DNA of 64,000 nt from Thalassovita autumnalis (GTDB taxonomy: Bacteria > Pseudomonadota > Alphaproteobacteria > Rhodobacterales > Rhodobacteraceae): NCBI RefSeq assembly GCF_001458255.1, contig NZ_CYSB01000038.1:62001-126000 (forward strand). Reading direction: 5' to 3'. The position numbers were made by a program, and so were the translations under genes. Shown here one piece after another: positions 35,012 to 37,658 of this stretch; positions within the stretch are counted from its first letter, which is position 1, and every line of letters begins with the position of its first letter. The notes under the pieces are model-generated. The model had not been told where the DNA came from. It was given only the letters and a program-made list of their open reading frames with translations, and searched no databases.

Positions 35012-35497
35012 ATGTCAGATGCACCTAAAACGTCCCCAAAGGCCCAAGTGGTCTTTGCCCTAAGGCACTGCCGCAGAGCGATCACATTGCTGGCGATGGT
35101 CTGGGCATTGCTTGTGGTTTTGCCCACGGTCGCCACCGCGCAAGAGATCGACAATAGCGCCGATGTGGCCACGGGCCGCGCCCTTTACATGACCCATTGC
35201 GCCACCTGCCACGGGCTGGAGGCAGAGGGAAACGGCCCGATGGCGCCTGTGTTGCTGGTGCAGCCCAAATCCCTGGCAGCGTTGAGCGTTGAAAATGGCG
35301 GGATCTTTCCGCTAAAGCGTGTTGTGGCGCGCATTGATGGGCGCGATCCGCTGGTCAGCCATGGATCCGCAATGCCGGTTTACGGCGAGGTCTTTCAAGG
35401 CGATGATCGCGCTATGAAAACTGAAACCGGCCAGCCGATGCTGGCAGGTGGCCCGATTGTGGATCTGGTCGCCTATTTAAGGAGCATCCAGCAATGA
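35012..35497 (+). CDS. Cytochrome c (class I-like), exported
   Basis: A 161-residue protein with a basic N terminus and a hydrophobic export segment at about 23-43 (cleavable at ATAQ, or an anchor). The single heme site is CATCH at 63-67; the distal methionine is probably in SAMPVYGE. The C-terminal DLVAYLRSIQQ helix is typical of mono-heme cytochromes c. AGGAGG precedes ATG 35012. Its stop overlaps the next cytochrome's start (ATGA), so the two are made together. The electron partner is unknown. Confidence 0.88.
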   Translation: MSDAPKTSPKAQVVFALRHCRRAITLLAMVWALLVVLPTVATAQEIDNSADVATGRALYMTHCATCHGLEAEGNGPMAPVLLVQPKSLAALSVENGGIFPLKRVVARIDGRDPLVSHGSAMPVYGEVFQGDDRAMKTETGQPMLAGGPIVDLVAYLRSIQQ

Positions 35498-35925
35498 CTT
35501 TTGTCGCCCGTTGCACCCCTTTTGCCTTTGTCGCGTTGGCGGCCTGTGCCCCCAGCCAGGACGTTGCCATGCCGGAACCTGCTGAGGGGGCGCTGCTGTT
35601 TGCGCAGAATTGCGCCATCTGCCATGGCGCCAACGGGCAGGGCGGTAGCACCGGCACGGACGGCCCGCCGCCTGCAGACCTGACGCGTCTGTCACTGGCC
35701 AATGGCGGCGTGTTCCCGCGTGAAATGGTGCTGACGACGGCGGATGGCTACAACCGGCAGGCGCTTGGCGATCAACGGATGCCGGAATTTGGCGGCTTTC
35801 TGGGTGGTGAAACCGTGCCGCTGGATGTCAGCGGCACCGCATCGGCCGAGGATGCCAATCTGACCCCGGTGCCACGGGCGCTGGCTGCCCTTGTGGCCTA
35901 TCTGGAAACCCTGCAGGTGGAGTGA
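35494..35925 (+). CDS. Lipoprotein cytochrome c
   Basis: A 143-residue protein with lipobox LAAC (Cys18) and heme site CAICH at 40-44; the Met ligand is probably in QRMPEFGGF. It ends LAALVAYLETLQ, like its partner, so the two are paralogues: one soluble or signal-anchored, one lipid-anchored. They share the arrangement LxxENGGIFP/LANGGVFP between heme and Met. A joint periplasmic electron-transfer role under low oxygen would fit the FNR-like box at 34931. Confidence 0.88.
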   Translation: MTFVARCTPFAFVALAACAPSQDVAMPEPAEGALLFAQNCAICHGANGQGGSTGTDGPPPADLTRLSLANGGVFPREMVLTTADGYNRQALGDQRMPEFGGFLGGETVPLDVSGTASAEDANLTPVPRALAALVAYLETLQVE

Positions 35926-35931
35926 TCGCGC

Positions 35932-36618
35932 TCAGCTGCAGATGCCGTTCAGATCGGCATCTTTCCACGGCACCACCGCGGCGCGGTCGATCCGTGTTTG
36001 CAGCAGCTGCACCGGCATTACCTCAGACAGCATCGCATGCAGCCGCTTTGTGCGCTGCGCCTTTGGAGCCAGGGCGCGGCAACAGGTGAACTCTTCCACA
36101 ATTGCGGCCTGCTGTTCAAAGGGGAAGCTCAGGAAATCGGGCTGGCTGTCCAGTTCAAACAGATAGGGATCATGGCCCGGCTTATGTTCGCTGGCGGCGC
36201 GCCAGGGGGTGTAACCGGTGCGATCACGGTTCTGCCATTGCCAGACATGGGTCATCTCATGGGCAAAGAGCATCAGATCCCACAGATCAGTGCCCTGCGG
36301 GTATTCATGTGTGAAATCAGGCCGGTAGAGGTCTTTGCGGTAAAAGACGTTCTGATAGACGGCAATCGCCCCGGGGGAGGTTTTGAACGTCTCCCCTTTG
36401 ACCGGGGGAAACACCCGCTCCTGACAGGTCACCCGGGGCCGCGCGGCATAGGTAAAGGTCACGCTGCGGGCAAAATGCCCGTCGTTAAACCGCACCGGTT
36501 TCGGATCCAGCTGGTCGCCATAAAACGTCCGCGCATAGGCGCGTTCGCGTTCCGTCAGGGGACGGCCACAGGCGGTGAGCAGCAGGCAGCAGGCCAGGAG
36601 GCCGATCAGAATGCGCAT
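35932..36618 (-). CDS. Lipoprotein with HExxH zinc-peptidase-like motif
   Basis: A 228-residue lipoprotein (MRILIGLLACCLLLTACG, lipobox LTAC). HEMTHVWQWQNR carries an HExxH metal site, followed by a conserved DSQPDFLSFPFEQQAAIVEEF segment; this arrangement occurs in roseobacter proteins called vgr-related protein. Peptidase activity is likely but not shown; the third zinc ligand may be a Glu in VEEF. I start at ATG 36618, which gives a clean lipoprotein signal; ATG 36633 adds five residues. Confidence 0.8.
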   Translation of the reverse strand: MRILIGLLACCLLLTACGRPLTERERAYARTFYGDQLDPKPVRFNDGHFARSVTFTYAARPRVTCQERVFPPVKGETFKTSPGAIAVYQNVFYRKDLYRPDFTHEYPQGTDLWDLMLFAHEMTHVWQWQNRDRTGYTPWRAASEHKPGHDPYLFELDSQPDFLSFPFEQQAAIVEEFTCCRALAPKAQRTKRLHAMLSEVMPVQLLQTRIDRAAVVPWKDADLNGICS

Positions 36619-36706
36619 AGGGTCAGACTGCACCTCTGGCGGCGCAAGGTCCAGCCCTATGAAACGATCCTAACGGGCGATCCAGATCGGCAATCCGTGG
36701 GGCTGA

Positions 36707-36820
36707 TTATTGCAGGATGTGATAAGGCAGCAACCGCTCAGGAGTCGCCGCATGGGTCGACATGATGGAAAACGCCGTGAGGGCCGCAGCCGACCCCAGA
36801 ACCAGAGTGATAAAGCGCAT
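36707..36820 (-). CDS. Tiny exported peptide A (37 aa)
   Basis: A 37-residue open frame: MRFITLVLGSAAALTAFSIM, then STHAATPERLLPYHILQ. The first 20 or so residues are a signal-like hydrophobic helix, with a possible cleavage after THAA that would leave a 12-residue peptide. A perfect AGGAGG sits 8 nt before ATG 36820 (36829-36834). The start of peptide B (36926) is alike: MRF, VLG, A13, A16 and S18 are shared. It may instead stay in the membrane. No known family. Confidence 0.6.
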   Translation of the reverse strand: MRFITLVLGSAAALTAFSIMSTHAATPERLLPYHILQ

Positions 36821-36885
36821 GACCGTTACCTCCTACCGTACCGAAAACGCAAAACATGATCACAGCTCAAACCGAGCATAAACGC

Positions 36886-36919
36886 CCTCTGGCCCGACCC
36901 GAAAAGGCGAGGCCAGAGG
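36886..36919. terminator. Inverted repeat between peptides A and B
   Basis: CCTCTGGCC (36886-36894) and GGCCAGAGG (36911-36919), 9-bp stem. On the minus strand it follows peptide B, with only a short T-stretch, so it could end or attenuate that transcript. Confidence 0.45.
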
Positions 36920-36925
36920 CGGGGC

Positions 36926-37048
36926 TTAACCTGCTGTGTAAGCAGGGACCGAGTGAGGAACCTCACTCGCCGCGCCGGGGATTGACGCGATGGCTGACAG
37001 GGCTGAGGCAGCTATGACCCAGCCCAATACGACGGGCAGAAATCGCAT
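36926..37048 (-). CDS. Tiny exported peptide B (40 aa)
   Basis: A 40-residue open frame: MRFLPVVLGWVIAASALSAI, then ASIPGAASEVPHSVPAYTAG. It has a signal-like N terminus with a possible cleavage after PGAA, leaving about 13 residues. GAGAGG lies 6 nt before ATG 37048. The first 18 residues match peptide A at nine places. Bases 36951-36968 inside the gene form a perfect 8-bp inverted repeat with a 2-nt centre. The 148 bp upstream to the Lrp gene may hold the promoter of both peptides. Confidence 0.58.
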   Translation of the reverse strand: MRFLPVVLGWVIAASALSAIASIPGAASEVPHSVPAYTAG

Positions 37049-37196
37049 GGGTGGCCTCTCAGTTTATGGTGCGGGGTGGTCGCTAGCAGACAGCAAACAC
37101 CTTACCGCATGGTTAAGACAACGGTCGGAAGATGCAGCAATTTTACAGAATTTCTGTGGATAACTTTTCGAGCCCGCTCAAAGCCTTACCCATAGG

Positions 37197-37658
37197 TTAA
37201 CGCAGGGCGACCAGATCCGCGCGTTTGACCTCTTTGAGGATCACATTGGTCTGTGCCCCTGCGACCGCCTCAATCCTGAACAGCACCTCTTCGAGGAAGC
37301 GGTTATGCGCGGCGATGTCTTCGACCAGGACCCGCAGGTGATAATCGGCCTGACCGGTGGTGGCATAGCATTCCAGCACCTCCCGGCGTTCCCCGATCAC
37401 CCGGATGAAATCCTTCAGCTTTTCAGGGTCGTGGCGGGTCAATTGCACATGCACGATGGCGTGAAATCCTAGGCCCAGCTTCTCCAGCGCCAGCTGCGCG
37501 CCATAGCGCCGAATGAGGCCGCTTTCTTCCAACGCGCGGATCCGCCGCCAGCAGGAAGAGGCCGACAGCCCGGCCCGTTCTGCCAGATCAGCGTTGGACA
37601 TGCGGCAATCCTGTTGCAGCAGTTCCAGAAGGGTCAGGTCACGGTCATCGAGGTGCAT
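37197..37658 (-). CDS. Lrp/AsnC family transcriptional regulator
   Basis: A 153-residue regulator with an N-terminal helix-turn-helix (LDDRDLTLLELLQQDCRMSNADLAERAGLSASSCWRRIRALEE) and a C-terminal RAM ligand domain (FHAIVHVQL ... CYATTGQADYHLRVLVEDIAAHNRFLEEVLF). It is divergent from the indolepyruvate oxidoreductase gene, with 193 bp between. Lrp-type proteins next to amino-acid catabolic genes usually control them in response to the amino acid, here perhaps an aromatic or branched-chain one. Confidence 0.92.
   Translation of the reverse strand: MHLDDRDLTLLELLQQDCRMSNADLAERAGLSASSCWRRIRALEESGLIRRYGAQLALEKLGLGFHAIVHVQLTRHDPEKLKDFIRVIGERREVLECYATTGQADYHLRVLVEDIAAHNRFLEEVLFRIEAVAGAQTNVILKEVKRADLVALR

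Follow-up and report, generated by a model that had tools for sequence, protein, structure and literature searches.

MgrB, MgtS and AcrZ are small regulatory proteins that span the inner membrane once. Another small inner-membrane protein, TimP of Salmonella, has 38 amino acids; its authors saw the full-size form alone despite a predicted cleavage site, and reported the N-terminal part to be better conserved than the C-terminal region (PMC7667032). On a larger scale, 'The Cryptic Bacterial Microproteome' counts in the Enterobacteriaceae 67,297 clusters of small intergenic ORFs that evolve under purifying selection and are mainly hydrophobic or potentially transmembrane, with about 88% of the 50%-identity clusters being genus-specific (PMC11188072). 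A search of the open-licence literature found no paper on the gene pair described here, on small proteins of Thalassovita, or on small transmembrane proteins of Rhodobacteraceae studied with Ribo-seq.

The pair lies in a stretch of 64,000 nucleotides from Thalassovita autumnalis, which was analysed as a whole and is called the window here, and consists of pep1 with 37 and pep2 with 40 codons. Like MgrB, MgtS and AcrZ, its products are short and, by their predicted architecture, single-span inner-membrane proteins. In this respect they appear most like TimP, with which they share the size, a signal-like hydrophobic N-terminus that is better conserved than the tail and the intergenic location of a small gene (PMC7667032). 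Unlike TimP, the pair comes in two tandem copies and has neither an Rfam match nor TimR-like upstream complementarity, the likeness being one of architecture. With the microproteins of the Enterobacteriaceae (PMC11188072), the pair has in common that it is hydrophobic, potentially transmembrane, under purifying selection and genus-specific, but it stems from another bacterial group, consists of paralogues in tandem and has a block of conserved sequence upstream.

pep1 and pep2 form a new microprotein family that is ordinary in kind, one pair among the very many genus-specific membrane microproteins now being recognised, and genes with products of 37 and 40 amino acids are easily missed owing to their size. 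What they offer is a clean, selection-supported family from bacteria whose small genes seem to be hardly charted. The family also has built-in natural variation, with two paralogues, a clade that has a single gene, a form without a tail and a genome that lacks both genes, and it is therefore easy to ask whether the helix or the tail matters.

The two genes and their relatives

Both genes are located on the minus strand, pep1 (MRFITLVLGSAAALTAFSIMSTHAATPERLLPYHILQ) at 36707..36820, as indicated by ORF reading, full-length orthologues, purifying selection and an AlphaFold2 model, and pep2 (MRFLPVVLGWVIAASALSAIASIPGAASEVPHSVPAYTAG) at 36926..37048, as indicated by ORF reading, homologues in eight of nine genus genomes, invariant residues and an AlphaFold2 model. 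They are flanked on the same strand by a Lrp/AsnC-type regulator (37197-37658) and a lipoprotein-type gene (35932-36618), both names being assigned from reading the sequences, and the stretch 36500-37300 is single copy in its own genome. An earlier, sequence-only reading had described minus-strand frames of 37 and 40 codons with good ribosome binding sites, and we found the ORFs as well as both Shine-Dalgarno sequences as described, AGGAGG 8 nt before the start of pep1 (36829..36834, minus strand) and GAGAGG 6 nt before that of pep2 (37055..37060, minus strand). Its figure of 563 bp for the surrounding gap is correct if the neighbour starts at the GTG at 36633, but becomes 578 bp from the likelier lipoprotein ATG at 36618. 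The statement that both products begin with MRF and share nine of their first 18 residues was borne out (M1, R2, F3, V7, L8, G9, A13, A16 and S18 without gaps). For residues 4-22 six identities were observed, a number that is reached in 2.1% of shuffles of one sequence compared with the other, and the N-terminal likeness, taken alone, is only mildly beyond composition.

The genus sample comprised nine genomes (G000-G008), with G000 being the window genome and G007 its sibling. A pep2 profile identified full-length homologues in eight of them (E 1.4e-18 to 5e-21) and none in G001 (best E 0.375), where the region in front of the lipoprotein-type gene likewise showed no such frame. The pep1 profile identified full-length genes in four of the nine (G000, G007, G006 and G004; E 3e-25 to 1.3e-24) and a form of 21 codons in G002 (E 2e-6); it found no pep1 in G001, G003, G005 and G008, and its matches in G008, G003 and G005 (E 0.002 to 0.06) are the pep2-type genes of these genomes. 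Paralogy of the two genes is seen in the ranking of matches, as the pep2 profile places the adjacent pep1 right after its own orthologues in G004, G000, G007 and G002 (E 0.006-0.025) and also next in G006 (E 0.13). The orthologues keep start, order and spacing. The Shine-Dalgarno sequence is kept for both genes in G007, G004 and G006 and for pep2 in G002, with AGGAG at a similar place before pep1 in G004 and G006 and GAAGG or GAAAGG before pep2 in G004, G006 and G002; in G003, G005 and G008 the one preceding the homologue is weaker, as is that of the short pep1 in G002.

Among 84,980 species genomes, six loci matched one peptide pattern, a scan that divergent relatives and records near the window's own may escape. 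They belong to Thalassobius sp. Cn5-15 (G006), Thalassovita gelatinovora (G002), T. litoralis (G003), T. mediterranea (G004), Thalassobius vesicularis (G008) and the Rhodobacteraceae MAG SP161 (G005). Profile searches of 295 family genomes from 294 genera, with G000 and G004 representing the genus itself, gave no convincing homologue in the 293 genomes of other genera. With a maximum E of 1, these searches matched in 212 of 295 genomes for pep2 and 232 of 295 for pep1, one of them scoring at most 25 first-look candidates per genome, so that weak relatives may escape. Among the matches listed outside the genus, the best two for pep2 consisted of 19 residues of a 124-codon frame (E 4.4e-4) and of a sequence with two internal stops (E 1.9e-3), while the best for pep1 was a piece of a 222-codon frame (E 1.5e-3); all of these were taken as chance, as were, as a group, the weaker ones listed. 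The same lipoprotein-type gene is carried by 137 genomes, and the region in front of it was inspected over up to about 900 nt in 30 of these loci, 28 of them from other genera; no such frame was present, the hydrophobic ORFs seen there being three unrelated ones, two in L123 and one in L132.

Pfam and NCBIfam gave no match above cut-off for either peptide; sub-threshold Pfam matches to DUF5543 (E 0.038) and TM_PetC (E 0.18) occurred in two relatives and none for the window's own peptides, and were set aside. There was no match in PHROGs and PADLOC at E up to 1 and none to plasmids in the pep2 search, and of 14 pattern stretches in viral contigs obtained with the pep2-type alignment none was confirmed. 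As far as searched, the family thus appears confined to Thalassovita. Elsewhere in the window genome (G000:C35:18767-19229), one frame of 86 and one of 101 codons each gave a weak match (E 0.36), the two lying about 394 bases from each other, and its sibling has three matches at even spacing; these suggest a small tandem gene repeat there.

Selection on the two frames

The window genome and its sibling differ by five bases over both frames, and all five differences are silent (P=0.003 for the pooled frames), where P compares the observed changes with a random placement of the same base changes. In three wider pairs, 13, 15 and 13 amino-acid changes were observed in pep1 as compared to 20.8, 20.8 and 23.6 expected (P=1e-4, 0.004 and 5e-5). 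Codons 1-24 of pep2 were compared in eight of 21 possible between-species pairs, with P values of 0.008, 0.088, 0.044, 0.091, 0.016, 5e-5, 1.5e-4 and 0.084, pairs that share branches and are therefore not independent; the sibling pair with its one change (P 0.67) is uninformative for this part.

In both genes constraint is stronger over the first 22 codons than over the tail. For pep1 of G000 and G004, pN is 0.10 and pS 0.67 in the first part versus 0.40 and 0.55 in the tail, and with P values of 0.014, 0.022 and 0.084 in three pairs the pep1 tail retains some constraint. Between clades, little or none is seen on the pep2 tail (pN 0.58 and pS 0.48 for G000 and G003), which carries insertions and deletions and was excluded from the pair test. 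The tail differs among orthologues as well as between paralogues.

We conclude that pep1 over its whole length and codons 1-24 of pep2 are under in-frame purifying selection. The sequence-only reading had named the absence of frame conservation in relatives as the result that would speak against it, and both genes proved to be conserved in frame; its description of related micro-genes whose hydrophobic N-terminus is conserved while the tail varies agrees with the profiles and with the codon selection. Because of the in-frame purifying selection, and because the orthologues keep start, order, spacing and mostly the Shine-Dalgarno sequence, both frames are real genes, kept by selection in one genus of marine bacteria.

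Predicted architecture and function

All ten distinct full-length members start with M-R-F, followed by a stretch of 18-24 residues that are neither charged nor strongly polar nor proline, an uncharged hydrophobic run that compares with 10, 15 and 16 residues in three signal-type N-termini of the window. Both products contain one hydrophobic helix that is long enough for a membrane span, but its hydrophobicity is moderate. Expressed as the sum over the best 19 residues on an insertion scale, it ranges from +0.1 to +2.0 in eight of the ten members and is -0.4 and -0.45 in the other two; on the same scale, a transmembrane segment of a neighbouring transporter scores -2.5 and the signal-type N-termini score +4.0, +1.6 and -0.7. 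The values lie between the transmembrane control and one signal-type control, overlap with the two other signal-type controls and do not decide between membrane span and signal peptide; the helices being only moderately hydrophobic, a signal peptide is therefore also possible. AlphaFold2 models show one helix each, from residue 2 to 25 in pep1 (mean pLDDT 79) and from 4 to 21 in pep2 (mean pLDDT 72), with loose tails of low confidence. A lone predicted helix is expected for any sequence of such type.

With regard to cleavage, the sequence-only reading had proposed an Ala-Ala site that would leave about 12-13 residues in both products. This fits the 37-residue frame well, where Thr-x-Ala followed by Ala-Thr-Pro (T22, A24, A25, T26 and P27) is invariant in all three distinct full-length sequences, with acceptable -3/-1 positions and the usual signal-peptide length of 24. 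In the 40-residue frame the best site, at position 21, Ala-Ile-Ala followed by Ser (Ser or Ala among the relatives), would leave 19 residues instead; this site is present in five of seven distinct sequences and is lost in G002 and G003, which have only other, shifted sites.

We consider it moderately probable that the two genes encode a tandem-duplicated, genus-specific pair of Sec-targeted, single-span inner-membrane microproteins, now diverged. The N-terminus with its one positive charge (M-R-F) and the single hydrophobic helix of about 18-24 residues would lead the proteins into the Sec pathway, and the helix would then come to lie across the inner membrane with the N-terminus inside and the short, flexible and variable tail in the periplasm. 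Ten residues of pep2 are invariant over the seven distinct sequences (M1, R2, F3, G9, W10, A13, A16, S18, A19 and P35). The small ones among them, G9, A13 and A16 (A19), would lie together with W10 along one face of the helix, and a small-residue face is typical of helix packing. Because these residues line one face, we propose that the pep2 helix likely packs against itself or against a larger membrane protein, which it would modulate. The helix may well be the working part of both proteins, a view we favour because the constraint lies there, because the pep2 cleavage site is not fully conserved and because one pep1 is without a tail. For the same two reasons of site and tail, and since the neighbours, read by eye, include no receptor or exporter gene that accompanies every copy, the proposal of secreted peptide signals is not supported; small membrane proteins, which had been offered as the fallback, fit better.

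The main rival to the membrane reading is that a peptide of 13 residues is cleaved from pep1. Signal peptidase I would then free mini-peptides of about 13 residues in the case of pep1 (ATPERLLPYHILQ) and of about 19 in that of pep2, which would act in the periplasm on an envelope protein or on the membrane. The acceptable pep1 site, kept in three of three distinct full-length sequences, would suit such a processing, as would the pep2 site in five of seven, the constraint on the pep1 tail (P 0.014, 0.022 and 0.084) and the fact that one control signal of the window is equally or more hydrophobic than the helices. Nevertheless we regard it as rather unlikely, given the loss of the pep2 site in G002 and G003, hydrophobic stretches of 18-24 residues that exceed all three signal-type N-termini (10, 15 and 16), the tail-less pep1 of G002 and the precedent of TimP, where a predicted site may stay uncut (PMC7667032).

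It seems improbable that the pair represents type I toxins, that is, small hydrophobic proteins that damage the membrane on overproduction and are silenced by an antisense RNA. Their size, hydrophobicity, tandem duplication and patchy presence within the genus are compatible with this, and so is the N-terminus that is better conserved than the tail, as described for TimP (PMC7667032); in addition, the hairpin behind pep2 has its T-run on the antisense strand in G004 and is called on both strands in G003. On the other hand, no consensus promoter was called on either strand of 36600-37300, a search of 36400-37400 against Rfam gave no hit at E up to 1, no TimR-like upstream repeat is common to the four loci searched, the ribosome-binding sites are open and strong, and the tails carry few charges. 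Hardly credible, finally, is the explanation by spurious ORFs or by translated regulatory leaders of the downstream gene that have no protein function. The frames are indeed short and without a database match above cut-off, and pep1 stands just before the lipoprotein-type gene, but the purifying selection acts in frame and keeps residues, not codons alone, and a distance of 2.7 to 10 kb separates the homologue from the lipoprotein-type gene in G003, G005 and G008.

The short pep1 of T. gelatinovora (L209:5070-5135) ends right past the helix after 21 codons, so that it consists of little beyond the helix. With its weak Shine-Dalgarno sequence it may be a tail-less form or a decaying gene.

Neighbourhood, transcription and upstream region

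The gene downstream of pep1 (35932..36618, minus strand) encodes a lipoprotein-type protein of 228 amino acids, counted from the ATG, which contains HEMTH (HExxH), has no Pfam or NCBIfam match above cut-off and is, by this motif, a candidate for an uncharacterised envelope metalloprotease. It is present in 137 of 295 family genomes. In five of the eight loci it adjoins the peptide gene or genes. G003, G005 and G008 have a single gene that is pep2-like, its start also resembling pep1, and that is located behind a ParE-like gene (named from sequence reading), with other ORFs between it and the lipoprotein-type gene in G003 and G008; in the other genus genomes, except G001 with neither gene, the pair stands directly before the lipoprotein-type gene. 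The gene upstream of the pair differs by lineage, being a Lrp-type regulator in G000 and G007, a divergent BadF-like kinase in G004 and G006 and a TRAP-binding-protein-like gene in G002, the latter two named by sequence reading.

An unrooted tree of three neighbouring proteins joins G000/G007 with G004/G006 and then with G002/G001, and sets G003, G005 and G008 apart. The likeliest history would be one ancestral gene followed by tandem duplication and by loss in G001; as the tree is unrooted, a loss of pep1 in the clade of G003, G005 and G008 is possible as an alternative.

In the eight loci a GC-rich hairpin is present downstream of pep2 or its homologue, at a distance of up to about 120 nt. 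It was called with a T-run on the sense strand in G003, G008, G005 and G006; in G002 a hairpin with T-run was recognised by eye, its loop of 12 nt being too long for the scan, which called none there. In the window the hairpin lies between pep2 and pep1 (36886..36919, minus strand, by reading) and has no clear T-run, and the terminator scan called none; G007 has the same hairpin, by eye. pep2 likely has its own terminator in part of the genus and may have one in the window, and looks like a transcription unit of its own. Between pep1 and the lipoprotein-type gene no terminator was apparent in the scan of the window, which suggests that these two are probably co-transcribed.

In the roughly 120 bases upstream of pep2, G000, G007, G004 and G006 share conserved blocks despite their differing upstream genes, and the alignment of these four genomes delimits one from CTTAACC to TCTGC (37086..37117, minus strand). 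In the window the TTAACC block has a near-repeat where the upstream regulator gene ends; this near-repeat was considered as the source of a TimR-like RNA and rejected, having no counterpart in G004 and G006 and not being called as a repeat. No sigma-70 consensus was called in the window. The site TTAA-N7-TTAA, the CtrA consensus, is not kept between lineages and was likewise rejected.

Farther upstream, 115 nt before the start of pep2 (37155..37163, minus strand), the window contains its sole copy of TTATCCACA, which equals the DnaA-box consensus and is a candidate site for DnaA. Shuffled windows contain it 0.13 times on average, with one or more copies in 12 of 100. TTATCCACA or TTACCCACA is also found at -114/-115 of pep2 in G007, G004 and G006, with G004 having a pair of such sites at a distance of 22 nt, of which one is TTACCCACA; G002, G003, G005 and G008 lack the motif before the gene. 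A replication origin was considered on account of TTATCCACA and rejected, since the GC skew does not change lastingly and has a positive value in 15 of 16 segments.

A more specific proposal is that the products of one duplicated gene became hetero-partners, with pep2 under a DnaA-box-bearing promoter tied to replication and pep1 coupled to the HExxH lipoprotein. We consider this highly improbable; if true, pep1 could gate the envelope HExxH lipoprotein, or the lipoprotein could trim the pep1 tail.

Beyond the lipoprotein-type gene and convergent with it, two tandem small c-type cytochrome-like proteins (CxxCH) are encoded at 35012-35925, and each of the nine genus loci read has at least one c-type cytochrome-like gene at that place.
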